Shown here in pieces: positions 1 to 10,988 of a stretch of DNA of 64,000 nucleotides. The position numbers and the translations under genes are program-made. The stretch is from Rhizomicrobium sp. Lineage in GTDB: Bacteria; Pseudomonadota; Alphaproteobacteria; Micropepsales; Micropepsaceae. The number at the start of each line of letters is the position of its first letter. Positions within the stretch are counted from its first letter, which is position 1. The stretch is from the NCBI GenBank assembly GCA_037200985.1, contig JBBCGJ010000001.1, positions 3,200,756 through 3,264,755 on the forward strand, in the 5' to 3' direction. The notes under the pieces are model-generated. The model had not been told where the DNA came from, searched no databases, and worked only from the letters and a program-made list of their open reading frames with translations.

Positions 1-825
1 GCTGAACAGCCGGCTCTCGCGCATGGCGAAGGCCACGTTGATCACGCCGCCGCGCAGCGGCGAGGTCGCAAAGGTCCAGTTGTTGCCGCGCGCGTCGTCG
101 GCGGAATGCACGTCGCGCTCGCTCGCGAACCGCCGGGCGGTGCCGACGAGGGCGCGGGCGACGCCGGCGTCGTTCGAGGCCAGGATGTTGCCGTCGCGAT
201 CGTAGATGAACACGACCGCGCCCTTCTGCAATCCGTTGCCGCGCACCATGAAATCGAGCCAATGGAGCTGGAGCACGACCGACAGCGCGCCGTCGAAGCG
301 GCCCTCGGAATCGCGCAGCGGCAGCATGCCGATGATCACCGGCTGCTTGAGGACCTGGCTTATCATCTGGCCGCTCACGACGAAGGATTTGGAGGCGCGC
401 GCGCGTTCGAAGATCGGCAGGCCGGCGGCGCTGTTGCCCCTGGCGCGCGGCAGGGCCGAACAGACATCGGTGCCGTCGGCCCCGAGGCGGGAGAGATTGG
501 CGAAATATTTCACCCCGATCAGCGCGTCGCCCAGCACCGCATCGCAATCGCGCGAGACATTGCGCACATCGCTGAGATTGGCGAGGGCGCGGGCGATCTG
601 CTCCGCCGAGGAAAGGAGATTCTCCTCGTCCTTCGCCGCGCCGTTGGCGGACTGGATAAGGCGGTCGTGCACGCGCGCCACGTCGGCTCCGGCACGGTCG
701 ATGCCCTGCAGGATGCTGACGACGGCGATCGGCAGAAGTGCGACGGTTACCGCGATGAGGAGCGTGATGCGGAGCGGCCAGCCCCGCTCACTCGTCTGTT
801 CCCTTGCGTCGTCTGCGGGCTGCAT
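1..825 (-). CDS. Sensor histidine kinase, N-terminal sensor part (runs off window start)
   Basis: Translation gives 275 residues before the window edge. A short cytosolic leader starting MQPADDAREQ is followed by a membrane segment at about residues 16-41 (ITLLIAVTVALLPIAVVSIL) and then a soluble, probably periplasmic sensor region with Cache-like character: an FVVSGQMISQ strand, IYDRDGNILASND and a second half ending FAMRESRLFS. No kinase core is inside the window, so the kinase call is inferred from context. The ATG overlaps the end of ecfG by 38 bases, which implies translational coupling. A membrane sensor kinase beside ecfG/nepR/phyR is typical of alphaproteobacteria, where it phosphorylates PhyR (PhyK/PakF-type role). 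Another kind of Cache-domain receptor cannot be excluded without the C-terminus. Confidence 0.72.
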   Translation of the reverse strand, partial: MQPADDAREQTSERGWPLRITLLIAVTVALLPIAVVSILQGIDRAGADVARVHDRLIQSANGAAKDEENLLSSAEQIARALANLSDVRNVSRDCDAVLGDALIGVKYFANLSRLGADGTDVCSALPRARGNSAAGLPIFERARASKSFVVSGQMISQVLKQPVIIGMLPLRDSEGRFDGALSVVLQLHWLDFMVRGNGLQKGAVVFIYDRDGNILASNDAGVARALVGTARRFASERDVHSADDARGNNWTFATSPLRGGVINVAFAMRESRLFS

Positions 826-1447
826 CGGGACCGTCTTGCGGCGCGAGGCGATCCAATTGCGCCATGATTTCACGGGCAGCTTCCCCTTCGGGCGGTCGGT
901 CCGACTGCGGCAACGCCTCATCGCCGTCGAGGATTGCAATAAGAGCCTTGCGTGCGCGCGCAACCCTGCTTTTCACCGTGCCCACGGCGCAATTGCAGAT
1001 TTCCGCGGCGTCCTCATACGAAAATCCGCCGGCGCCGACCAGGATCAGCGCTTCGCGCTGTTCGTCGGTCAGGGCGCGGAGGGCGCGCGCCGTGTCGGAC
1101 AATTCGGCCGACCAGCCCTGGTCCTGGCCGCCGCCGGGAATCTTCTCGGCGGCTTCCTGATCCCACGGCGCCTGACGCCAGGCGCGGCGGCGGTCGGAAT
1201 AGAACTGGTTGCGAAGGATGGTGAAGAGCCATGCCTTCAGGTTCGTGCCGGGCACGAAGGAATCGCGCGACTGCCAGGCCTTGACCAGGGCTTCCTGGGC
1301 GAGGTCGTCGGCGCCTTCATGGCTGCCGCAGAGCGAGCGCGCGAAGGCACGCAGGAACGGGACGAGTCCCAGGAGCTCCGTCTTGAAGTCGTCCGGTTCG
1401 GACGCGGGAGCGCTGTGCGGGGCGGGGGCGGTGTGGGGGGCGGTCAT
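788..1447 (-). CDS. ecfG: General stress response sigma factor EcfG (ECF15 family)
   Basis: Protein of 219 aa, an extracytoplasmic-function sigma factor with the usual two regions. Region 2 (about residues 25-95) contains GADDLAQEALVKAW and TNLKAWLFTILRNQFYS, which bind core RNA polymerase and the -10 element. Region 4 (about 135-185) contains the SYEDAAEICNCAVGTVKSRV helix-turn-helix that reads the GGAAC -35 box. The start overlaps the nepR stop by four bases (ATGA), so anti-sigma factor and sigma factor are coupled. In alphaproteobacteria NepR sequesters EcfG until phosphorylated PhyR displaces it. A perfect EcfG-type promoter upstream of nepR (1746-1771) suggests that the operon is autoregulated. 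The basic C-terminal tail (RRRRKGTDE) lies in the overlap with the kinase gene. Confidence 0.95.
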   Translation of the reverse strand: MTAPHTAPAPHSAPASEPDDFKTELLGLVPFLRAFARSLCGSHEGADDLAQEALVKAWQSRDSFVPGTNLKAWLFTILRNQFYSDRRRAWRQAPWDQEAAEKIPGGGQDQGWSAELSDTARALRALTDEQREALILVGAGGFSYEDAAEICNCAVGTVKSRVARARKALIAILDGDEALPQSDRPPEGEAAREIMAQLDRLAPQDGPDAARRRRKGTDE

Positions 1448-1659
1448 GACGACTTCTTCCCCGACTCGTCCTTCGCATCGATCCGACGCAACAGGTCCAT
1501 GAATTCGTCCGGCACGGGCTCTTGCGAGACCGCATCGTAGATGCGCCGCAGCTCCCGTCCGATCACCCGCTGCCGCGCGCGGATGGCGCGCGCTTTTTCG
1601 CGGTTAGGGTTCTGTTCCTTAGACAAATTCCAATTCCGCTGTTGCGGTGCGCCTGACAA
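1444..1659 (-). CDS. nepR: Anti-sigma factor NepR
   Basis: Small protein of 71 aa carrying the NepR signature IGRELRRIYDAVSQEPVPDE followed by FMDLLRRID at about residues 33-62. In the family these two helices hold EcfG and are transferred to phosphorylated PhyR under stress. The N- and C-terminal tails are hydrophilic and low in conservation, as usual. It is the first gene of nepR-ecfG-kinase and is divergent from phyR, with a 195-base intergenic region that carries EcfG-like promoters on both strands. Confidence 0.95.
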   Translation of the reverse strand: MSGAPQQRNWNLSKEQNPNREKARAIRARQRVIGRELRRIYDAVSQEPVPDEFMDLLRRIDAKDESGKKSS

Positions 1660-1745: not shown

Positions 1746-1771
1746 AACGCCTGCCGCCCGCCAATGGTTCC
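1746..1771 (-). promoter_or_regulatory. EcfG-type promoter of nepR-ecfG
   Basis: Read on the minus strand the site is GGAAC-N17-CGTT, an exact match to the EcfG consensus. The -10 box lies about 87 bases before the nepR start, leaving room for a leader of about 80 nt. It indicates positive autoregulation of the sigma/anti-sigma operon. The match and spacing are seen directly; activity is inferred. Confidence 0.82.
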
Positions 1772-1781
1772 CCCCGCTTAT

Positions 1782-1806
1782 GGAACTTTTCGTCTCAAGG
1801 AGCATT
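1782..1806 (+). promoter_or_regulatory. Possible EcfG-type promoter of phyR
   Basis: GGAAC is followed after 16 bases by CATT instead of CGTT, pointing toward phyR about 49 bases downstream. It also fits a looser GGAAC-N18-TT rule described for RpoE2-type sigma factors. The imperfect -10 makes this weaker than the other sites in the window. Confidence 0.45.
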
Positions 1807-1854
1807 CCCCTTTGAGAACGACGATGATAGCGCCGTCGAAGGAGCCCGTTTTTC

Positions 1855-2652
1855 ATGAGCATGTCCCAGACCCTTGCCCCGCATCTTCCCTATCTGCGCC
1901 GCTATGCCCGCGCGCTGTGCGGCTCCCAGTCCAGCGGCGACACCTATGTCCGCGCCGCCCTGTCCGCGCTGCTGGCTGGCGACCAGACGCTGGTCGAGGG
2001 CGTGGCGCCCCGCGTCGGCCTGTACCGCGTCTTCCACGCCATCTGGCAATCGGCCTCGGGCCGCATCGACGAGAACACGACGCGGATCGCCGAGACCAAG
2101 CCGTCGCCGGAGACGCGCCTGAGCGCGCTCGATTCGAACAAGCGCGCCGCACTGCTCCTGACCGCCGTGGAGGCCTTCAGCCTCGAAGAGGCCGCCTTCA
2201 TCCTGGACGAGACCGCCGAGGAAGTGGAGCGCGCCATCGTCGACGCGCAGCAGACCATCGACCGCCAGCTCGCCAGCCGCGTCCTCATCATCGAGGACGA
2301 GCCGATCATCGCGCTCGACCTGGAGAACCTCGTCACCGAGCTCGGCCACAAGGTCGTCGCGACGGCCGCGACCCGGGCCGAGGCGGTCGCCAAGGCCCAT
2401 TCGGAGCGGCCCGGCCTGGTGCTGGCCGACATCAATCTGGGCGAAGGCGGCTCGGGCATCGACGCGGTGGCCGAGATCCTGAACAGCTTCGACATTCCGG
2501 TGATCTTCATCACCGCCTATCCCGAGAAGCTGCTGACCGGCGAGCGGCCGGAGCCGACCTATCTGATCGCCAAGCCCTTCCTGCCCGAGACGGTGCAGGC
2601 GACGGTCGGCCAGGCGCTTTTCTTCCATTCGGCGGCCAAAAAAGCCGCGTAA
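1855..2652 (+). CDS. phyR: Stress response regulator PhyR (sigma-like domain plus receiver)
   Basis: Protein of 265 aa. The N-terminal part (about residues 1-135) is a sigma-factor mimic resembling regions 2 and 4 (LRRYARALCG, FSLEEAAFILDET), which binds NepR. The C-terminal part (about 140-260) is a receiver domain: acidic pair in LIIEDEPIIALDLE, phospho-acceptor Asp in LVLADINLGEGGSGID, switch Thr/Ser region VIFITAYPEK and conserved Lys in IAKPFLPE. Phosphorylation exposes the sigma-like domain so that NepR swaps from EcfG to PhyR. It is divergent from nepR-ecfG. A second start (MSQ) lies two codons downstream; the first was used. Confidence 0.96.
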   Translation: MSMSQTLAPHLPYLRRYARALCGSQSSGDTYVRAALSALLAGDQTLVEGVAPRVGLYRVFHAIWQSASGRIDENTTRIAETKPSPETRLSALDSNKRAALLLTAVEAFSLEEAAFILDETAEEVERAIVDAQQTIDRQLASRVLIIEDEPIIALDLENLVTELGHKVVATAATRAEAVAKAHSERPGLVLADINLGEGGSGIDAVAEILNSFDIPVIFITAYPEKLLTGERPEPTYLIAKPFLPETVQATVGQALFFHSAAKKAA

Positions 2653-2656
2653 TTCC

Positions 2657-2679
2657 AAAGTTCCCTAACACGGAACTTT
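2657..2679. repeat. Inverted repeat AAAGTTCC-N7-GGAACTTT
   Basis: An exact 8-base inverted repeat with a 7-base spacer begins five bases after the phyR stop. The right arm contains GGAACTTT, the same sequence as the possible phyR -35 box at 1782, and AAAGTTC occurs again just downstream near 2703. It has no T-run, so it is a poor terminator. It could be an operator, or a weak EcfG -35 for the next gene (CATT follows only after 18 bases). Confidence 0.4.
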
Positions 2680-2730
2680 GAGGCATGGTGGGGCCATTCC
2701 CCCAAAGTTCTGGGATATTCGGAGAGAACG

Positions 2731-3084
2731 ATGAGCGCCGCCGGCAACACCGAAATCGACGCGAGACTGTCCGCCTTGCGGACCGATCTGGAGACATTGC
2801 AGAAGGATCTGAGGGCCTTGGCCGGCGACGTCGGCGACGTCGCCTCGCACCAGGCCAGGGACGCCCTCAAGAAGGCCGAAGCGGTCGCCGAGCGGGCCTA
2901 TGCGCTGGCCGAGGATGCCGCCTCCCAGGCCAGCAAGACCGCGTTCGACGCCGCCGAAGACGTCGAGGAATGGGCGAGCGAGAACGCCGAGAGCCTGCGC
3001 ACCACGGTGCGCGAGCAGCCGCTGACCTCGCTCGCCATCGCCGCCGGCGTCGGCGCGTTCCTGGCCCTGCTTCTTCGCCGCTGA
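2731..3084 (+). CDS. DUF883/ElaB-YqjD-like membrane-anchored stress protein
   Basis: Protein of 117 aa. Residues about 5-95 form a long charged amphipathic helix with heptad-like Ala/Leu (DARLSALRTDLETLQKDLRA, then KKAEAVAERAYALAEDAA). It ends in a short C-terminal membrane anchor, LTSLAIAAGVGAFLALLLRR, with the family's closing arginines. ElaB/YqjD proteins are stress-induced inner-membrane proteins; YqjD binds ribosomes in E. coli. The position after phyR and 11 bases before a small membrane protein suggests a stress-controlled operon. Confidence 0.8.
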   Translation: MSAAGNTEIDARLSALRTDLETLQKDLRALAGDVGDVASHQARDALKKAEAVAERAYALAEDAASQASKTAFDAAEDVEEWASENAESLRTTVREQPLTSLAIAAGVGAFLALLLRR

Positions 3085-3095
3085 CGGGATCCGTC

Positions 3096-3443
3096 ATGGG
3101 GGCGAAAATCGCCGCGGCGTCGGTGCTTGCGGTCATCGGATTGCTGCTCGTCGTGTTCGGCGTGGGCTTTCTCAGCTATGCGCTGGTGCTGGCCCTCACG
3201 CCGCTTCTGGGCGCGGCCGGCGGCGCGGCGGTGACCGGCGCGGTCTTCGTCGGTCCGCCGGTGCTGTGGGCCGGCATCGTCCTCATGCGCGGGCCGCCCA
3301 AGCCGAAGCCGACGGCGCTGCCGTCCAGCCTGTGGATGGCGCTGTTCGCGGCGATCGCCAAGGAGACGCCGTGGATCGCGATCGTCGGCGCCATCGTCGT
3401 CGCCGGCGCCGAGATGTTCTTCGGCGGCCGGACGCGGAAATAA
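3096..3443 (+). CDS. Small membrane protein, phage-holin-III/YqjE-like
   Basis: Protein of 115 aa with three probable membrane segments: about residues 5-30 (AASVLAVIGLLLVVFGVGFL), 32-62 (rich in Ala/Gly/Val) and 88-108 (PWIAIVGAIVVAGAEMFFGG). A proline/lysine loop (PPKPKPT) lies between the second and third. The start was taken at the ATG 11 bases after the DUF883 stop. DUF883 followed by a YqjE-like membrane protein is a common alphaproteobacterial pair (yqjD-yqjE in E. coli). Exact function is unknown; family membership is by organisation rather than strong sequence identity. Confidence 0.7.
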   Translation: MGAKIAAASVLAVIGLLLVVFGVGFLSYALVLALTPLLGAAGGAAVTGAVFVGPPVLWAGIVLMRGPPKPKPTALPSSLWMALFAAIAKETPWIAIVGAIVVAGAEMFFGGRTRK

Positions 3444-3445
3444 CC

Positions 3446-3470
3446 GGAACTCCCGCTTTTCCCTGACGTT
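3446..3470 (+). promoter_or_regulatory. EcfG-type promoter of the DUF1328 gene
   Basis: Exact GGAAC-N16-CGTT on the plus strand, starting two bases after the previous stop codon and 30 bases before the start of the 57-aa membrane protein gene. Match and spacing are seen; control by EcfG is inferred. Confidence 0.82.
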
Positions 3471-3499
3471 TCCTCTGCAAGCAGCAGAGGACGATCGTC

Positions 3500-3673
3500 A
3501 TGCTCGGATATGCGGTTCTGTTTTTGATCCTGGCGCTCGTCGCCGGCTATCTGGGCTTCTTCGGATTGGCGGGCCTTGCGGCCAGCATCGCCAAGATCCT
3601 CTTGATCGTCTTCGTCGTGCTCCTGATCGTGAGCGCCTTTTCCGGCGCGCTGCGCGGCCGCCCGCCGATCTAA
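3500..3673 (+). CDS. DUF1328 (YtjA-like) small membrane protein
   Basis: Protein of 57 aa, mostly hydrophobic: MLGYAVLFLILALVAGYLGF, then a GLAGLAASIAKIL turn, a second segment (LLIVFVVLLIVSAF) and a basic tail (GALRGRPPI). The length, two membrane segments and glycine pattern fit the DUF1328/YtjA family, which is common in stress regulons of proteobacteria. The Shine-Dalgarno-like AGAGGA lies about 8 bases upstream. It has its own EcfG promoter and is followed by a strong terminator hairpin, so it is probably monocistronic. Molecular function is unknown. Confidence 0.85.
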   Translation: MLGYAVLFLILALVAGYLGFFGLAGLAASIAKILLIVFVVLLIVSAFSGALRGRPPI

Positions 3674-3706
3674 AGTCGGTTTGCCCTGAAACTATCCACA
3701 GTCGTC

Positions 3707-3737
3707 ATTGCCCGGCTTGGCCGGGCAATCCGTTTTT
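3707..3737 (+). terminator. Rho-independent terminator after DUF1328 gene
   Basis: A perfect 10-base stem, ATTGCCCGGC/GCCGGGCAAT, with a 3-base loop is followed by CC and five T. It lies 33 bases after the stop codon. Confidence 0.8.
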
Positions 3738-4039
3738 CGCCGCCAAATTGGGTCGCCCGCATGGTCCGAGCGCCATGTGTGGACGGCGATGACGATTGTT
3801 CTTGGGGCCCGTCGGCGGCGGCGCCGTTCGCGCGAAAAAAATCAAGTCGATCAAGCGGCTGCGATAGGCGCCGGGACGGGTTATGCATCCCGCAAATTAT
3901 TTTCTGAAACCCGGCAACCCAAATTAACCCCGTGCATTCTCTTCTCCGAGCGGACGTCCGGTCCGGAACGCCCCAGCCCCTTCGACAGCCCGCATCGGGT
4001 GTCCGCTCGTCTTCCTCCCCCTCGAAAATCCGGAAGCGC
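3738..4039. other. Intergenic stretch without a supported gene
   Basis: About 300 bases separate the stress genes from the 3' end of the minus-strand glycosyltransferase. Open frames here have no codon bias, ribosome site or recognisable product. A lower-GC patch lies near 3880-3930. Nothing else is seen. Confidence 0.5.
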
Positions 4040-5500
4040 TTACGGCAAGCGCCCGAAGCGCGTGCCGCGCCAATCGCCCAGCAGATAGGCGACGTAGTGC
4101 GCGATCGGCACGCCATGGCGCAGCCGGTCGAAGCGCGCCACTTCACGCACCTGGCCGAAGCGGCCGGCCAGTTCGGCGTGCTTGTCCAATCTCTGCTCCA
4201 CCACATAGAGCACCGGCTTCGCCAGAAGCCCGGCATCCGGCACCGGCGCGTCGAGGTAGCGATCGTCCTCGTTCGCCTGGATCACCGGCGGGTGGTCCGG
4301 CAGGTAGAACGCGAACCAGGACGTCGACGCATAGTCCGTCGTCACGATGGCGGCGGCGTTGTTGCTCCGCCGCAAGGTTTCGATGTTCGCCGCCACGCCG
4401 TCGAAGCCGACGGCCAGGAGCCGCGCCAGGGGATCGCTCCTGCCGAAGGGGATGACGCCGAACAGCGCCTGGGCATAGACCGCCAGCAGCAGGACCGCCG
4501 CGACCGGCGTCGCCGCGGGACGCGCCACGCGCCAGACCGCCTTCATCCATCCCGTCCAGTCGCTTTGCACCCAGGCCTGCGCCGCCGCCACGCCAAGGGC
4601 GGGAAACAGGAAGGACGGCCAATTGCCCTGGATGCGGTCGTGCAGCGAATGGATGAGAAAGTAGAGCGCCGAAGGAAAGACGAGGGCCGCCAGCAGGAAT
4701 TCCGCGCTGTCGCTGTCGCGCGCGCGGAAGGCCAGCGCCAGCGTCGCCAGCACGAAGATGAAGGGCGAGGCCAGCACGAGCTGGGCGCCGAGGAATTCGA
4801 GCAGGAAGCGCAGCGTGAAATGCCCTCCGGCGATGCGGCCGAACTGGAAGGCGAAGGTCGCCCAGCCATGCGCGTCGTTCCACAAAAGGTTGGGCAGGAA
4901 GACGATGAGCGCGACCGCGCCGCCGGCCCAGGGCCAGGGCGTGACGAGCCAGCGCCGCGCCTTGGGCGACAGCAGCAGCCACACCGCCATGCCGGCGCCC
5001 AGGAAGAAGATCGTGTATTTCGACAGCAGGCCCAATCCCGCGGCGAGGCCGACGCCCAGCCACCACGCGCCGTTTCCGGACTCCCGCACCTTGGCCAGCG
5101 CATAGAGCACCGCCGCCGCGGCCGCGACCGACGGCCCGTCCGGCGTCGCCGCCAGCGTCTCGACCGAGATCATCAGGGTCAGGTTGAAGAACAGGCAGGC
5201 GCGCGCCCCCGCATCCGCGTCGCGCAGCAGCGCGGCGCCGGCACGCCAGACGAAAAAGCTCGCCAGGATCGAAAGGACGATGCCTCCGGCGCGCACGCCG
5301 AGCGCGGTGTCGCCGAAGAGCAGCGTGCCGGCGCGGATGACATAGGCGATGGCGGGCGGATGATCGAAATAACCGGCGCCGAGATGGCGCGACCACAGCC
5401 AGTAATAGGCCTCGTCGGCCGAGAGCGGCAGGACGGCCGCGGCCACCGCGCGCAGCACCGTCAGGCCGAGGATCGCGAGAAGGATATGCCGGCGCGTCAT
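4040..5500 (-). CDS. ArnT/PMT-family lipid-linked glycosyltransferase (GT39/GT83-like)
   Basis: Protein of 486 aa with about 10-12 membrane segments. The first extracytoplasmic loop carries the acidic motif SADEAYYWLWSRH, then GYFDHPPAIAYVI, which is the catalytic-loop signature of ArnT/PMT-type enzymes that transfer sugars from polyprenyl phosphate donors. Residues about 370-486 form the periplasmic C-terminal domain. The start was set at MTRRHILLAILG because its ATG overlaps the upstream GT2 stop (ATGA). The pair is a standard module: the GT2 makes polyprenyl-phosphate sugar and this enzyme transfers it to lipid A, protein or another envelope acceptor. The acceptor cannot be told from sequence. 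Confidence 0.86.
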   Translation of the reverse strand: MTRRHILLAILGLTVLRAVAAAVLPLSADEAYYWLWSRHLGAGYFDHPPAIAYVIRAGTLLFGDTALGVRAGGIVLSILASFFVWRAGAALLRDADAGARACLFFNLTLMISVETLAATPDGPSVAAAAAVLYALAKVRESGNGAWWLGVGLAAGLGLLSKYTIFFLGAGMAVWLLLSPKARRWLVTPWPWAGGAVALIVFLPNLLWNDAHGWATFAFQFGRIAGGHFTLRFLLEFLGAQLVLASPFIFVLATLALAFRARDSDSAEFLLAALVFPSALYFLIHSLHDRIQGNWPSFLFPALGVAAAQAWVQSDWTGWMKAVWRVARPAATPVAAVLLLAVYAQALFGVIPFGRSDPLARLLAVGFDGVAANIETLRRSNNAAAIVTTDYASTSWFAFYLPDHPPVIQANEDDRYLDAPVPDAGLLAKPVLYVVEQRLDKHAELAGRFGQVREVARFDRLRHGVPIAHYVAYLLGDWRGTRFGRLP

Positions 5501-6585
5501 CTGGTGCGCCACACGAACAGGCTCGACATCGCGTAGTTCCAGAACAGCCCCATCGCCGCGCCGGCGGCGCCGGCCACCCACCACACCTTCTCTTCCGCAT
5601 AGAGCCAATTGGCGATGCCGACATTCGTGAAGGCGCCGATCGAGCAGAACAGGCAGAAGACGACGAAGCCCCAGAACATCGAGGCGCCCTTGAGGCGCCG
5701 GTCGCGATAGGTCAGCTCGTTGTTGAGGAAGAAATTGCTGGTCAGCGCGACGAAGGTGGCGATCGCCTGGGCGGTGTAGAAGTCCCGCGCGCCCGCCAGC
5801 AGCGCCGACTTCAGCGCGATCAGATGGACCACGAGGCCGAGCGCGCCGACCAGCGCGAAGAACAGAAAGCGCGGCTCGACCACGTCGCCGGTCAGCTTGG
5901 CGAAGATGAGGCCCAGGAATTCGACGCCGATCTGGACGTTGAACTTGCTTTCGCCCTGCTCGCGCCTGCCGAACACATAGGACTGCTCCGCCACCCGCAG
6001 CGAAGGCCCGGCGGTGGCGACGATGTCGAGCAGGATCTTGAAGCCGGCCGGCGACAGCCGCTCCGCGATCGCGTCGAACCGGTCGCGCCGCAGCATGAAG
6101 AAGCCGCTCATCGGATCGGACAGCGGCACGTCGAGGATCTTGCGCGTGATGTTCGTGGCGAGAAGGCTCAGCCGGCCGCGCGCCGCATCGAACGATTCGG
6201 CGCTGCCGCCCGCGATATAGCGGCTGGCGGCGACGAGGTCGGCCGTGCCGCCGCGCAGCTTATCGAGCATCGCCACCAGGGCGTGCTCGTCATGCTGGAG
6301 GTCGGCGTCCATCACCGCGACGAACGGCGCGCTGGAAGCCAGCATGCCCTCGATGCAGGCGCCGGCAAGCCCGCGCCGGCCGACGCGGCGCAGGCAGCGC
6401 ACGCGCGGATCGCGCGCCGCGATCGCCTTGGCGGTCTCGGCGGTGCCGTCCGGCGAATCGTCGTCGACGAAGATCGCCTCCCAGGCGATGCCGGCCAGCG
6501 CCGCATCCAGCCGCCGCACCAGCTCGGCGACATTGTCCCGTTCCTTGAAGGTGGGAAGGACGATGGAAAGCTCGACAGCGGACAC
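5497..6585 (-). CDS. GT2 polyprenyl-phosphate glycosyltransferase with GtrA-like domain
   Basis: Protein of 362 aa from the GTG start. The N-terminal GT-A domain (about residues 1-225) has LSIVLPTFKERDN, the FVDDDSPDGT nucleotide-binding motif and the VMDADLQHDE metal-binding Asp motif, as in dolichyl-phosphate mannose synthase/ArnC-type enzymes. The C-terminal 120 residues form a four-segment GtrA-like membrane domain (FLFFALVGALGLVVHLIALK, then NFFLNNELTYRDRR). The GTG at 6585 was chosen because AGGAG lies 6-7 bases upstream; a longer frame begins ten codons earlier. It is translationally coupled to the ArnT-like gene, for which it probably makes the lipid-linked sugar donor. Confidence 0.88.
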   Translation of the reverse strand: MSAVELSIVLPTFKERDNVAELVRRLDAALAGIAWEAIFVDDDSPDGTAETAKAIAARDPRVRCLRRVGRRGLAGACIEGMLASSAPFVAVMDADLQHDEHALVAMLDKLRGGTADLVAASRYIAGGSAESFDAARGRLSLLATNITRKILDVPLSDPMSGFFMLRRDRFDAIAERLSPAGFKILLDIVATAGPSLRVAEQSYVFGRREQGESKFNVQIGVEFLGLIFAKLTGDVVEPRFLFFALVGALGLVVHLIALKSALLAGARDFYTAQAIATFVALTSNFFLNNELTYRDRRLKGASMFWGFVVFCLFCSIGAFTNVGIANWLYAEEKVWWVAGAAGAAMGLFWNYAMSSLFVWRTR

Positions 6586-6644
6586 GCAAATCTCCTGGCG
6601 CCGCCTTGGTGGCAACAGGCCAGGACGGCGTCAAGGGATGCCCG

Positions 6645-6806
6645 CTAGAGGAAGTAGACCGACCAGAGGACGACGCCGGCCACCACCGCCAGCGCCAGGC
6701 TGACGCGCAGGACCCAGCGGACATGGCCCGAGGTCTCGCCCTGGCGGGCGTCCTCGGTCGATACGACCTGTTTGGGGGTCGAATTGTCGGTCATGGGTGT
6801 CGCCAT
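6645..6806 (-). CDS. Small single-pass membrane protein, unknown function
   Basis: Protein of 53 aa. It has a hydrophilic N-terminal half (MATPMTDNSTPKQVVSTEDA) and a C-terminal membrane segment, WVLRVSLALAVVAGVVLWSV, ending YFL. The ATG at 6806 lies one base after the upstream gene's stop and has AGGGAG about 6 bases before it, so it is favoured over a longer frame starting inside that gene. It is the last gene of a three-gene unit (7222 to 6645) downstream of an EcfG-like promoter. I do not recognise the family. Confidence 0.7.
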   Translation of the reverse strand: MATPMTDNSTPKQVVSTEDARQGETSGHVRWVLRVSLALAVVAGVVLWSVYFL

Positions 6807-6807
6807 G

Positions 6808-7050
6808 TCACGCTCCCTGTGGGGCGGCGGGATGGATGCGCCGTTCGAGCTCCGCGCGGGCATCGTTGACGAGCTGCAGGCGCTGGGTTTCGCCCTCGCC
6901 GTCCTGCTCGCGAATCCGCCGCTCCCAGGCGCTCAGGATCTCGAGCCGCTCCTCGTCGTTGAATCGCCGGTCGCGCATCACGTCCAGCGGGGCGCGATGG
7001 AAGCGGAGCGGCTCCTGCACGATGTCTTCGATGAGCTTCTTCTTGGTCAT
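6808..7050 (-). CDS. Small charged protein, unknown function
   Basis: Protein of 80 aa: MTKKKLIEDIVQEPLRFHRA, then PLDVMRDRRFNDEERLEILSAWERRI and a helical, charged C-terminus ending HPAAPQGA. No membrane segment or signal peptide. Small proteins with this pattern of an R-F-x-D-x-E-R-L-E-I-L core occur in many alphaproteobacteria as hypothetical proteins, often near stress genes; I cannot name a function. It lies 16 bases after the DUF3309-like gene and 1 base before the next, consistent with one operon. Confidence 0.72.
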   Translation of the reverse strand: MTKKKLIEDIVQEPLRFHRAPLDVMRDRRFNDEERLEILSAWERRIREQDGEGETQRLQLVNDARAELERRIHPAAPQGA

Positions 7051-7066
7051 CAGCGGGACAATCGGA

Positions 7067-7222
7067 TCAGAACCGCCCCAGAAGCACGAGCACCAGCACG
7101 ATGATGAGAACCAGGCCCAACCCGCCGCTCGGGTAGTAGCCCCAATTGCGGCTGTGCGGCCAGGACGGCCACGCGCCGAACAAAAGAAGCAGAAGGACGA
7201 TGATGAGAATTGTGCCGAGCAT
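7067..7222 (-). CDS. DUF3309-like small membrane protein
   Basis: Protein of 51 aa: a hydrophobic MLGTILIIVLLLLLFGAWPS segment, a central hydrophilic W-P-H-S-R-N-W-G-Y-Y-P-S-G-G loop and a second membrane segment (LGLVLIIVLVLVLLGRF). The WGYYPSGG centre and length match the DUF3309 family, frequently stress-induced in alphaproteobacteria. It begins a three-gene unit and lies 32 bases downstream of an EcfG-like promoter. Confidence 0.83.
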   Translation of the reverse strand: MLGTILIIVLLLLLFGAWPSWPHSRNWGYYPSGGLGLVLIIVLVLVLLGRF

Positions 7223-7254
7223 CTGGACTTACCTCGCAAGAACCTTGTGTTGGG

Positions 7255-7279
7255 AACACCAAGGTCACGGCAGAGTTCC
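7255..7279 (-). promoter_or_regulatory. EcfG-like promoter of the DUF3309 operon
   Basis: On the minus strand: GGAAC-N16-TGTT, one mismatch in the -10 box (T for C). It lies between the basic-protein gene and the DUF3309-like gene, 32 bases before the start codon. Confidence 0.65.
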
Positions 7280-7288
7280 GCCGCCGGT

Positions 7289-7591
7289 TCAGCGTCCGCG
7301 CCGTTTGCGCGTCGCGGCGGCCTTCTTCGCGGACGCCGAACGCTGCGCCGCGGTGCGGCCGGCCGCGGCGGCGCCGCCGAGGCGTCCGCCCTTGCGCGAC
7401 GGCGCACGGTCCTCGCTGCGCCCGCGGCCCGAGCCGCTCTTCTTGCCGCCATGGGTCTCGGCGTTCACCGTCGCCCAAGCGCGCCGTTCGGCTTCCTTCT
7501 TCGCCGTTCCGTGTTTCTCGTAGCCTTCCTCGATATGTTCGGCCTGACGCTTCTGTTTGCCGGTGTAACTCGACTTGTCGCCGCGCGGCAT
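7289..7591 (-). CDS. Small basic KGG-like stress protein
   Basis: Protein of 100 aa. The N-terminal half, MPRGDKSSYTGKQKRQAEHI then EEGYEKHGTAKKEAERRAWA, is a well-conserved soluble helical motif of a family often annotated as plasmid stabilisation or KGG/stress proteins in alphaproteobacteria. The C-terminal half is Gly/Ala/Lys/Arg-rich (GGKKSGSGRGR, then SAKKAAATRKRRGR), which suggests nucleic-acid binding. It has its own perfect EcfG-type promoter 22 bases upstream of the start, divergent from another stress gene. The toxin/antitoxin reading of the old annotation is not supported by anything visible here. Confidence 0.82.
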   Translation of the reverse strand: MPRGDKSSYTGKQKRQAEHIEEGYEKHGTAKKEAERRAWATVNAETHGGKKSGSGRGRSEDRAPSRKGGRLGGAAAAGRTAAQRSASAKKAAATRKRRGR

Positions 7592-7613
7592 GGCTGTCTC
7601 CCTTTCGGGTGCA

Positions 7614-7639
7614 AACGGCTCGGCGCCGAAACGGGTTCC
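7614..7639 (-). promoter_or_regulatory. EcfG-type promoter of the basic-protein gene
   Basis: Exact GGAAC-N17-CGTT on the minus strand, with the -10 box 22 bases from the ATG at 7591. Confidence 0.83.
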
Positions 7640-7666
7640 CCTGCGGCGTTATCCCGGCGGGTTCCC

Positions 7667-7691
7667 GGAACGGCCGGCGCGCCCCGGCGTT
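7667..7691 (+). promoter_or_regulatory. EcfG-type promoter of the secreted Asn/Gly-rich protein gene
   Basis: Exact GGAAC-N16-CGTT on the plus strand, 37 bases before the ATG at 7729. Only 27 bases separate it from the divergent EcfG promoter at 7614-7639, so the region is a compact bidirectional stress promoter. Confidence 0.83.
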
Positions 7692-7728: not shown

Positions 7729-8076
7729 ATGACGATTCACAAATTCGCATTGGGCGGTGCCGCCGTTTTCGCGCTGGTGACACTGGCCGCACCGGCCTTT
7801 GCGTTTACGCACCATCCGGCCACGCCGGCCGAAAACGCGCAGACCGACGAGTTGAACGCGCAGGCGTTGGCCAATGCGCAGGGCGGAACGGCCCCGGCCG
7901 GCGCGACCAATGCCGGAGCGAACAGCAACACGTTGAACAATGGCGGCATGATCACCGGCTCGGGCATGAATGCCGGCGGCATCGACGAGAACGGGAACGC
8001 CGCGCCGCCGCCCAAGCCGACCCAGCCGACGCCGGACAAGCCGTCGGACGATTCGACGCCCAACAACGGACAGTAA
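7729..8076 (+). CDS. Exported low-complexity protein, unknown function
   Basis: Protein of 115 aa with a clear Sec signal peptide (HKFALGGAAVFALVTLAAPA, likely cleavage after AFA near residue 25). The mature part is Ala/Asn/Gly-rich (AGATNAGANSNTLNNGGMIT) and ends in a Pro-rich tail (PPPKPTQPTPDKPSDDSTP). No catalytic motif or lipobox. AGGAG lies about 8 bases upstream of the ATG. Its EcfG promoter implies stress-induced export to the periplasm or surface. Function unknown. Confidence 0.78.
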   Translation: MTIHKFALGGAAVFALVTLAAPAFAFTHHPATPAENAQTDELNAQALANAQGGTAPAGATNAGANSNTLNNGGMITGSGMNAGGIDENGNAAPPPKPTQPTPDKPSDDSTPNNGQ

Positions 8077-8205: not shown

Positions 8206-9456
8206 ATGACCGACGACGCCGAACCCGCGTCCGGACGCGGGCGAGCGGCGTTCGGTTTCATTTTCGCGAGCGCGGTGGCGTGCGCGGTGACGATCGGCAT
8301 CATGATTCCGGTCCTGCCGAACCTGCTCAAGCAGTTCAACGGCGGCGACACCGCCGCGGCCGCCGACTGGAATGTCGCCTTCGCCGTGTTCGGCGGGGCG
8401 ATGAGCTTCCTCGCGGGGCCCGTGCTGGGCCTGTTGTCGGACCGGCTCGGACGCCGGCCGGTGCTTCTTCTGTGCATCGGCGGCCTCGGCCTCGACTTCC
8501 TGTTCATGGCCTTCGCGCCGAGCCTCGCCTGGCTGTTCGTCGGTCGGCTGATCAGCGGCGCGACCTCCGGCGTATTCTCCACGGCGAATGCCTATGTCGC
8601 GGACGTGACGCCGCCCGAGGAGCGCGCCCAGGCCTTCGGCTGGATGGGCGCCGCGTTCAGCGTCGGCTTTCTCGCGGGGCCTGCGATCGGCGGCTATCTC
8701 GGCGACATCAATCTGCGCCTGCCCTTCCTCGTGGCGGCGGCGCTCACGCTCGTCAACGCGCTCTACGGCTTCTTCGTGGTCCCGGAATCGCTGCCGCCGT
8801 CCAGGCGCACGGCGGCCTTCCATTGGCGGCGCGCCAATCCCTTGGGATCGCTGAAGCTGCTGCGCTCGCATCATGAGTTGCTGCCGCTGGCGACCGTCGG
8901 CTTCCTCAACCAGCTCGCCAACATGGTGTGGCCGAGCGTGTTCGTTCTCTATGCCGGCTATCGCTTCCACTGGACGGCCGGCACGACCGGCCTGTTCATG
9001 GCGGCCTTCAGCTGCGTCGGCGTCTCGGTGCAGAGCTTCATCGTCGGACCTTTCGTCAGGCGGTTCGGCGAGCGCGCCTGCCTGATCGCCGGCGCGGCCT
9101 TTCCCATTCTCGGCCTGGCGTGGATCTCCTGGGCGCCGACGGTGTGGCTCTATCTGCTGGCCGTGCCGTTCAACGCGCTGTGGCAATTGCTCGTGCCGGG
9201 CCTGCAGGGATTGATGACGCGGCGCGTCGGGCCTTCCGAACAGGGACAATTGCAGGGCGCCAATCAGAGCCTGGCCGGTGTCGCCTCGGTCGCCGGGCCG
9301 CTCGTCTACGGCCTGTCCTTCGCCTGGGCGGTGCGCCATCCGCAGTGGAATATTCCCGGCCTGCCCTTTCTTCTGGCGTCGCTCACCATGATGCTGTGCC
9401 TCGCCATCGCGATCCGCTCGGGCCGCATGGCGCGCGCCGCCGAAGCGGCGGCCTAA
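8206..9456 (+). CDS. TetA-like MFS efflux transporter
   Basis: Protein of 416 aa with 12 predicted membrane segments. Motif A between segments 2 and 3 reads GLLSDRLGRRPVLLLCIGGL and motif C-like glycines occur in segment 5 (FSVGFLAGPAIGGYLGD), as in drug/proton antiporters of the TetA/MFS.2 group. It is a proton-driven inner-membrane exporter; the substrate is unknown. It is convergent with the DHA2 exporter and their stop codons overlap (9453-9456), so the two genes touch end to end without a terminator. Confidence 0.87.
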   Translation: MTDDAEPASGRGRAAFGFIFASAVACAVTIGIMIPVLPNLLKQFNGGDTAAAADWNVAFAVFGGAMSFLAGPVLGLLSDRLGRRPVLLLCIGGLGLDFLFMAFAPSLAWLFVGRLISGATSGVFSTANAYVADVTPPEERAQAFGWMGAAFSVGFLAGPAIGGYLGDINLRLPFLVAAALTLVNALYGFFVVPESLPPSRRTAAFHWRRANPLGSLKLLRSHHELLPLATVGFLNQLANMVWPSVFVLYAGYRFHWTAGTTGLFMAAFSCVGVSVQSFIVGPFVRRFGERACLIAGAAFPILGLAWISWAPTVWLYLLAVPFNALWQLLVPGLQGLMTRRVGPSEQGQLQGANQSLAGVASVAGPLVYGLSFAWAVRHPQWNIPGLPFLLASLTMMLCLAIAIRSGRMARAAEAAA

Positions 9457-10988
9457 GCGACTTCCGGTCCCATCGCCGAGCGGCGGATGTGGCGCATGAA
9501 GGGCAGCACCAGAAGCGACAGCGCGAAGAACAGGCCGATCGCGATCCACGCCTCGTTGAACGACTGCACCAGCGCGGCCTTTTGGATCAGCGGCTCGGCG
9601 AAGGCGCGCATGGTCTCGTCGACCGGTCCCATGTCGCGGCCGTGGAAGTATTGCGCCGGCAGGCCGACGAGACGCGCCGCGTCGGCGTCGCCGGCCTGGA
9701 GCCGTTGCGCCAGCGCCCGGGCGTGCGTCGGCGTGCGCTGATAGAGGATCGTGTCGACCAGCGCGATGCCGATGGCGCCGCCCAGATTGCGCATCAGGTT
9801 GAACAGCGCGCTGCCGTCCGCGACCTGGCCCGGCATCAGCGTGTCGAGCGCCAGCCGCGTCGCCGGCAGGATGCAGAGCATGACGCTGGCGCCGCGCATC
9901 ACCTGCGGCCAGAACAGGCCGTCATAATCCGTCGCCGCCGTCTCGTAGCCGTTGGCGATCAGGCCGGCGGCGAACAGGCTGTAGCCGAAGCCGGTCAGGA
10001 TGCGCGGATCGACCTTGCTTTCGAGCCAGGCGGCGACGGGCGCGGTCGCAAGCTGGGCCGCGCCGGAGACGATCATGATCGTGCCGATCTCCCATGGCGA
10101 ATGCTCGCGCACCAGGCCGAGGAACAGGGCGAGCAGGTAGACCGAGCCGTAAAGACCCAGCCCCAGCACGAAGCTCAGCGTGCAGCCGAGCGTGAAGGTG
10201 CGCTCGCGGAAGCGGTAGAGGTCGAGGAAGGGATGCCGGCTGAACAGGCTGCGCCAGATCGCGCCCGAGCCGGTCACCACGCAGACCCCGATGCAGCCGA
10301 ACACGAAGGCGCCCTGCCATTGGTATTTCGGCGCTTCCTTGAGCACCAGTTCGAGTGTCGCCAGGAAGACCGCCGCCAGCGCGACGGCGAAATAGTCGAT
10401 GCGGCGGAATTCGGACGCGTCCGGCTCGCCCAGCCGCACGAAGCCGATCACCAGGCCCACGATCGCGATGCCGGGGACGAGATTGATCAGGAAGATCCAG
10501 TGCCAGCTATAGTACTCCGTGAGATAGCCGCCGATGGCGGGCCCGACCGTCGGCGCGATCACCGCCAGCGTGCCGGCCAGCGCGGTGGCGGCGATGCGGT
10601 GCTTCTCCGGCATCATCACGAAGACCGAGGTGAAGACGCCGGGGATCAGCATGCCGCCGCAGAAGCCCTGGACCACGCGCAGGACGATGAAGGGCGGCAG
10701 CGAGGTGCACAGGGCGCAGGCCATGCTCGCCAGGGTGAAGCCCAGTGTTGCGGCCGCGAACATCCAGCGCAGGGACATCGCCCGCGTGAGCCAGCCGGTC
10801 AGCGGAATGGCGATCACCTCCGCCATGAGATAGCCGGTCTGGATCCAGCTCAGTTCGTCCGACGTGACCTTGAGCGAGGCCTGGATGGTGGTGAAGGAGC
10901 TGGCGACGATCTGGATGTCCAGCACGGCCATCGCCATGCCGAGACACATGGCCGCGAAGCCGATCCAGATTTTGACGATGGGCGGCAT
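9453..10988 (-). CDS. EmrB/QacA-type DHA2 MFS exporter of the polyketide cluster
   Basis: Protein of 511 aa with about 14 membrane segments. The first segment has the DHA2 signature MAMAVLDIQIVASSFTTIQA with Asp in the membrane; motif A-like WLTRAMSLRWMF and antiporter motif C PTVGPAIGGYLTEYYSWHWI are present. Proton-driven exporters of this family move hydrophobic compounds. It lies six bases after the AlkB-like gene and is the last gene of the unit starting with the type III polyketide synthase, so export of the pathway product (or self-protection) is the likely job. No membrane-fusion (EmrA) partner gene is adjacent. Confidence 0.86.
   Translation of the reverse strand: MPPIVKIWIGFAAMCLGMAMAVLDIQIVASSFTTIQASLKVTSDELSWIQTGYLMAEVIAIPLTGWLTRAMSLRWMFAAATLGFTLASMACALCTSLPPFIVLRVVQGFCGGMLIPGVFTSVFVMMPEKHRIAATALAGTLAVIAPTVGPAIGGYLTEYYSWHWIFLINLVPGIAIVGLVIGFVRLGEPDASEFRRIDYFAVALAAVFLATLELVLKEAPKYQWQGAFVFGCIGVCVVTGSGAIWRSLFSRHPFLDLYRFRERTFTLGCTLSFVLGLGLYGSVYLLALFLGLVREHSPWEIGTIMIVSGAAQLATAPVAAWLESKVDPRILTGFGYSLFAAGLIANGYETAATDYDGLFWPQVMRGASVMLCILPATRLALDTLMPGQVADGSALFNLMRNLGGAIGIALVDTILYQRTPTHARALAQRLQAGDADAARLVGLPAQYFHGRDMGPVDETMRAFAEPLIQKAALVQSFNEAWIAIGLFFALSLLVLPFMRHIRRSAMGPEVA

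Follow-up and report, generated by a model that had tools for sequence, protein, structure and literature searches.

Genes and promoter sites of the locus

The first 8 kb of a 64-kb stretch of DNA from Rhizomicrobium sp. (contig JBBCGJ010000001.1; the whole stretch is called the window) carry the genes of the sigma factor EcfG, the anti-sigma factor NepR and the anti-anti-sigma response regulator PhyR, together with a sensor kinase gene, several small-protein genes and six putative EcfG promoters. The genes ecfG, nepR and phyR are all intact. The features are listed below by window position; distances run from the end of the -10 element to the start codon.

1..825 (-): sensor histidine kinase of the HisKA_2 type with a dCache domain, in a PhyK-like position (PF07568, E 1e-22; PF02743, E 6e-17)
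788..1447 (-): ecfG, extracytoplasmic function (ECF) sigma factor (PF04542, PF08281; PDB 5uxx_A, E 3e-46)
1444..1659 (-): nepR, anti-sigma factor, probable TTG start (PF18557, E 4e-14; NepR in PDB 3t0y_B, E 4e-7)
1746..1771 (-): putative EcfG promoter of nepR-ecfG, GGAAC-N17-CGTT, 86 bases to the nepR start
1782..1806 (+): putative EcfG promoter of phyR, GGAAC-N16-CATT, 48 bases to the start
1855..2652 (+): phyR, anti-anti-sigma response regulator (PF22029, PF22233, PF00072; PDB 3n0r_A, E 2e-87)
2731..3084 (+): gene of a DUF883-type small protein (PF19029)
3096..3443 (+): orf115, conserved small hydrophobic open reading frame without family match
3446..3470 (+): putative EcfG promoter of the DUF1328 gene, GGAAC-N16-CGTT, 29 bases to the start
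3500..3673 (+): gene of a small membrane-type DUF1328 protein (PF07043, E 3e-12)
6645..7050 (-): orf80 (6808-7050) and orf72, two small genes 3' of the DUF3309 gene
7067..7222 (-): gene of a small membrane-type DUF3309 protein (PF11752, E 9e-24)
7255..7279 (-): putative EcfG promoter of the DUF3309 gene, GGAAC-N16-TGTT, 32 bases to the start
7289..7591 (-): kggA, basic small protein of 100 aa without Pfam or NCBIfam match
7614..7639 (-): putative EcfG promoter of kggA, GGAAC-N17-CGTT, 22 bases to the start
7667..7691 (+): putative EcfG promoter of orf116, GGAAC-N16-CGTT, 37 bases to the start
7729..8076 (+): orf116, 115 aa with a signal-peptide-like start, without family match

The kinase that adjoins the locus is of the HWE/HisKA_2 type; the window edge cuts its C-terminal side, the whole gene being present at L031:4086-5963, and its start lies probably near 825. 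The NepR beside ecfG scored 52.4 bits in PF18557 (cut-off 25.7). PhyR has the sigma-like N-terminus and the receiver domain, with all three Pfam models over their cut-offs and 352 bits in NF006623 (cut-off 240). The solved sequence nearest to the ecfG product, 5uxx_A, is an RNA polymerase sigma factor, and the gene context of ecfG would suit an ECF15-type factor. A search of the genome gave no second EcfG-like gene, and the five other ECF-like matches were at most 32 % identical. The DUF883 gene is probably read through from phyR, and orf80 and orf72 are probably part of the DUF3309 transcript, as the gap of 16 bases and the gene order kept in relatives suggest. The names kggA and orf116 are working labels only; a KGG repeat family was not detected in the kggA product by Pfam at E 0.01. 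The stretch between phyR and the DUF883 gene (2653-2730) has a CAAAGTTC / GAACTTTG repeat in three copies, which could form alternative hairpins. These inverted repeats are clear in the window and in L142 only; L143 has degenerate copies, and the remaining relatives compared have degenerate ones or none. An N18 EcfG site considered before the DUF883 gene (2672-2698) was rejected, being absent from most relatives.

A pattern scan for GGAAC-N16/17-CGTT gave exactly four matches in the window, all within 6 kb and confined to the first 8 kb. These are the four exact sites of the original prediction, and its two one-mismatch sites, before phyR and the DUF3309 gene, were recovered as well. As had been proposed, all six face a start codon at short distance (22-86 bases). 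Taken alone, the window count is marginal: shuffled windows had a mean of 0.79 matches, and four or more were present in 3 of 100 shuffles. Below position 8000, twelve matches with at most one mismatch occur, some inside coding sequence (3037-3061, 5916-5940, 6936-6960), and not every near-match there carries meaning. The one-mismatch site 5516-5540 before GT39 was rejected; it lies within coding sequence, is matched in 4 of 19 relatives and was read as conserved codons. The six sites stand above chance because of their position and conservation, not because of their number.

Genomic distribution and conservation of the sites

In the whole genome the exact pattern matched 100 times. Fifty-nine matches were intergenic, against about 11 expected with 89 % of the window called coding (binomial p ~1e-31); an equal frequency in coding regions, held by the original prediction to speak against it, was not observed. 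Forty-five of the intergenic matches share the strand of the following gene and lie at most 200 bases from its called start, 32 of them at most 53 bases; they are regarded as candidate promoters. Genes were called with a home-made simple codon-model caller, and some genes behind the 45 sites have weak caller scores. Four of the 45 lie in the window, the genome's highest count for a stretch of 5,950 bases, a length picked to fit this cluster; random placement of 45 sites reached four in one stretch in 21 of 20,000 placements. The stress regulon had been described as local. With 45 sites spread over the chromosome and four of them here, it has to be seen as chromosomal, this locus being its densest spot.

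Pfam was applied to the first genes behind the 45 sites (37 scanned besides the four window genes, four short ones left out). Matches at E 0.001 were obtained for 27 of the 37, 25 of those over the curated cut-off. They include CsbD (twice), a universal stress protein (Usp), hemerythrin, cyclopropane synthase (CMAS), PRC barrel, inorganic pyrophosphatase, MgtC, haemolysin III, a GlgE domain, an HWE kinase and a second DUF1328. Judged by these families, the candidate set would be recognisable as a general stress regulon. Five intergenic exact sites in about 20 kb form a second, looser cluster at G000:C1:687909-708114, preceding pyrophosphatase, TPP-enzyme and DUF4142 genes among others.

Conservation was followed in 43 PhyR loci, 23 from a wider set of 80 named loci (1.34 Mb) and 20 from family genomes; two near-copies were removed, close pairs such as L032/L033 were kept. 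An exact site preceded nepR in 37 of 39 de-duplicated loci, the DUF1328 gene in 22 of 29 loci, orf116 in all five de-duplicated loci having the gene and kggA in three of five. Sites with at most one mismatch were present before phyR in 32 of 41 loci (14 exact) and before the DUF3309 gene in 20 of 21 (2 exact). EcfG-type promoters before both nepR-ecfG and phyR, a mark of PhyR-NepR-EcfG loci, are thus present. Genes without a claimed promoter had no site (orf115 0/20, GT2 0/19, mfs 0/4 loci) or few matches (ecfG 1/38). An EcfG site preceded the DUF883 gene itself in 8 of 31 loci, but in no close syntenic one, and the 22 upstream matches in 24 loci for orf80 were largely the DUF3309 site falling in the 250-base stretch searched. 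Anagrams of the motif reached a mean of at most 0.62 loci per gene. The spacers vary widely between rows while the sites before nepR, phyR, DUF1328 and DUF3309 persist. The -10 element mostly remains CGTT before nepR and DUF1328, differs from CGTT before phyR in 16 of 30 rows and is a non-consensus [A/T]GTT before DUF3309 in 17 of 21 rows. Nearest relatives retain the order ecfG-nepR/phyR-DUF883-orf115-DUF1328-GT39-GT2-orf72-orf80-DUF3309.

The DUF3309 site has the form GGAAC-N17-GTTCC, each strand matching with one mismatch, and the genome contains five exact overlapping site pairs with all ten matches intergenic. Palindromic two-way promoters as a general class were rejected: GGAAC-N11-25-GTTCC occurred 62 times in the genome, the reversed control 73 times, and in 60 of 69 genus genomes the N17 form was rarer than its reversed control.

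The spacing is specific in the 80 named loci. Exact sites numbered 242 with N16 and 87 with N17, each other spacing from 10 to 24 only 4-13. Together these are 329 sites; 359 anagrams gave 23 on average, and the highest of them (129) is the motif with the -35 element moved one base.

Several results weigh against an assignment to the EcfG system. The best NCBIfam model for the ecfG product gave 187.9 bits (cut-off 219), and NepR reached 50.6 bits in NF051865, under the cut-off of 100. The reversed pattern matched the genome 74 times, so a bare match, at 100, is weak evidence away from gene starts. The caller overlooked ecfG in its overlapping frame and put the nepR start too late. Some background was visible upstream of orf72 (exact match in 2 of 19 loci) and GT39 (one-mismatch match in 4 of 19). 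Single anagrams reached up to 19 of 39 loci at nepR and 13 exact sites at phyR versus 14 for the real motif, some being register-shifted copies of the site; in the 80 loci the anagram GACGA/TGCT was counted 109 times and involves no such shift.

On sequence grounds, we nevertheless read the locus with a probability of about 0.9 as the core of the alphaproteobacterial general stress response, EcfG transcribing its own regulators and the neighbouring small-protein genes. Right orientation, upstream concentration and conservation despite spacer drift support the original prediction, in which the regulators are neighbours of several likely targets. The behaviour of the sites is that of EcfG promoters, and their dependence on EcfG would follow from the known family. 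Autoregulation of nepR-ecfG and phyR is textbook knowledge. Since their two sites are the known autoregulatory promoters of the regulators, four promoters of neighbouring targets remain of the six. By analogy with the family, stress would activate the HisKA_2-type kinase, which would phosphorylate PhyR; phosphorylated PhyR would draw NepR off EcfG in a partner switch. RNA polymerase with the released EcfG would read GGAAC-N16/17-(C/N)GTT promoters, those of the nepR-ecfG operon and of phyR (probably with DUF883 and orf115 behind) forming a positive loop. The same polymerase would at once read DUF1328, DUF3309 together with orf80 and orf72, and the divergent kggA and orf116, besides some 40 candidate promoters of this kind at other places on the chromosome.

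Crowding around phyR and alternative explanations

The locus is genuine and conserved and belongs to a known kind; what deserves following is how targets crowd around phyR in several lineages. Site density was profiled in the 48 named loci outside the Sphingomonadales group, among which related species are non-independent, with the 450 bases before phyR excluded. In successive steps of 1.5 kb from phyR it amounted to 3.1, 5.65, 2.26, 2.76, 1.56, 0.27 and 0 per 10 kb, thus peaking near phyR and approaching background at 7.5-9 kb; the reversed pattern gave 13 matches in 780 kb of the same loci (~0.17 per 10 kb). Crowding was weak in the Sphingomonadales group (32 of 80 loci, 0.86 per 10 kb when the stretch before phyR is excluded), which is the default bin for loci without other label and includes a few unclassified metagenome-assembled genomes (MAGs). 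Among the 80 loci, 29 have DUF1328 near phyR, 23 of them with an exact site; DUF883 is there in 30 loci, 19 of them exact, and DUF3309 in 10, two exact and eight with one mismatch. Positions and strands differ between loci. In a draw of 115 genomes of the class, DUF1328 was found in 31 and DUF3309 in 22. Of thirty DUF1328 loci read, 11 had an exact site and 16 a site with no more than one mismatch; the corresponding numbers for DUF3309 were 5 and 13 in 26 loci read out of 30 (the copies of the window included in both).

The 14 loci grouped as Caulobacter have 5-11 exact sites each. L067 and L054 reach 11 and 10 around phyR, those of L067 spanning about 9.6 kb, while their whole genomes have 66 and 60 exact matches versus 64 and 79 in the reversed control. 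For two Steroidobacter genomes the respective numbers were 142/156 and 148/213. As exact matches did not exceed reversed ones in three of these four genomes, only the crowding near phyR is claimed, not a large regulon. Three of the 48 loci, with nepR-ecfG and phyR at about 8500-10200, belong to Steroidobacteraceae (L084, L089, L096), which are Gammaproteobacteria; two of the three are on contigs above 1.6 Mb. They have exact sites in front of nepR, of DUF1328 and of a lipoprotein-like gene. Their PhyR proteins form a single branch (100/100) in a 49-row tree, which is unrooted and therefore gives no direction of transfer. EcfG has been called exclusive to Alphaproteobacteria (abstract of PMC3892343). 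In the open-licence literature no paper was found that combines Steroidobacter with PhyR, or EcfG and NepR with Gammaproteobacteria and horizontal transfer.

Tentatively, at slightly under even odds, we propose that EcfG targets gathered within about 7.5 kb of phyR may constitute a portable island, by selected closeness or as a travelling module. It would consist of the regulators with DUF1328, DUF883, DUF3309 and orf80-like genes, reassembled in different orders across several alphaproteobacterial lineages and Steroidobacteraceae. A prior account of such clustering was not established from the open-licence literature, available in partial texts.

The strongest competing explanation accepts the promoters as real and takes the crowding as gene order inherited in a few lineages, closeness being unselected. 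The order is kept among nearest relatives, so their sites are non-independent events, and the weak crowding in Sphingomonadales loci also fits. Against it, the same families with EcfG sites occur near phyR at other positions and on other strands in Caulobacter, Hyphomonadaceae, alphaproteobacterial MAGs and Steroidobacteraceae, and the pooled site density declines with distance from phyR. We consider inherited order unlikely, though worth keeping in mind beside a portable island.

A different ECF sigma factor with a similar -35 element as the main reader of the GGAAC sites before the neighbouring small genes, with the [A/T]GTT of DUF3309 reflecting a second specificity, is very improbable. The genome has five further ECF-like matches, 17 of 21 DUF3309 rows show this -10 element, and RpoE of E. 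coli likewise uses a GGAACTT -35 element (excerpt of PMC8103513). However, a spacing of N16/17 with GTT is of the EcfG type, even the phyR promoter has an ending other than CGTT in 16 of 30 rows, and a table of EcfG-controlled genes of Sphingomonas melonis contains CATT, AGTT, TGTT and GGTT endings (excerpt of PMC6599016). Chance matches in a GC-rich genome, for which the 3 of 100 window shuffles and the 74 reversed matches could be adduced, are hardly credible given the intergenic share (59/100), the spacing profile and the sites kept despite drifted spacers at nepR, phyR, DUF1328 and DUF3309, this argument being weakest for kggA (3 of 5 loci).

With transcription by EcfG as the preferred explanation, DUF1328, DUF3309, kggA and orf116 gain a likely regulatory assignment in this lineage. 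No open-licence paper was found to treat EcfG together with DUF1328, and the single one found on DUF3309 mentions neither PhyR nor EcfG. Judging from this arrangement, the surroundings of the sigma factor gene are a place to look for its targets. If the clustering is selected or mobile as a unit, it would become testable how the general stress response spread beyond Alphaproteobacteria.

Comparison with known systems

The locus shares with the PhyR-NepR-EcfG (ECF15) class the ecfG-nepR pair divergent from phyR and EcfG promoters on both sides. According to an excerpt of PMC4814048, this mostly divergent, EcfG-driven arrangement is typical of the class, with the motif GAAC-N16,17-C/GGTT. GGAAC-N16-CGTT is the motif in Rhizobium etli (excerpt of PMC3892343) and in Sphingopyxis (excerpt of PMC7083833). 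In contrast to the class system, conserved small-protein genes with their own EcfG sites follow the locus here, and one EcfG-like gene was found.

The SigT locus of Caulobacter likewise combines the regulators with nearby SigT-dependent genes. The SigT starvation list names CC_3466, CC_3473 (an entericidin B homolog) and CC_3477 (phyR), and CC_3466 appears to be regulated through SigU (excerpt of PMC3073932). Caulobacter loci differ in gene order and have DUF1328 on the opposite strand; DUF3309 was not found near phyR in the Caulobacter loci examined.

DUF1328 and CsbD as putative genes of a stress sigma factor are also shared with the small-protein regulon of RpoS in enteric bacteria, but kggA lacks a match to the KGG family. 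RpoS is non-homologous to the regulator of the present system. In Salmonella, DUF1328 (ytjA), CsbD (yjbJ) and KGG proteins are listed as controlled by sigma-S (excerpt of PMC5437024). Thus different stress sigma factors may drive similar small proteins.

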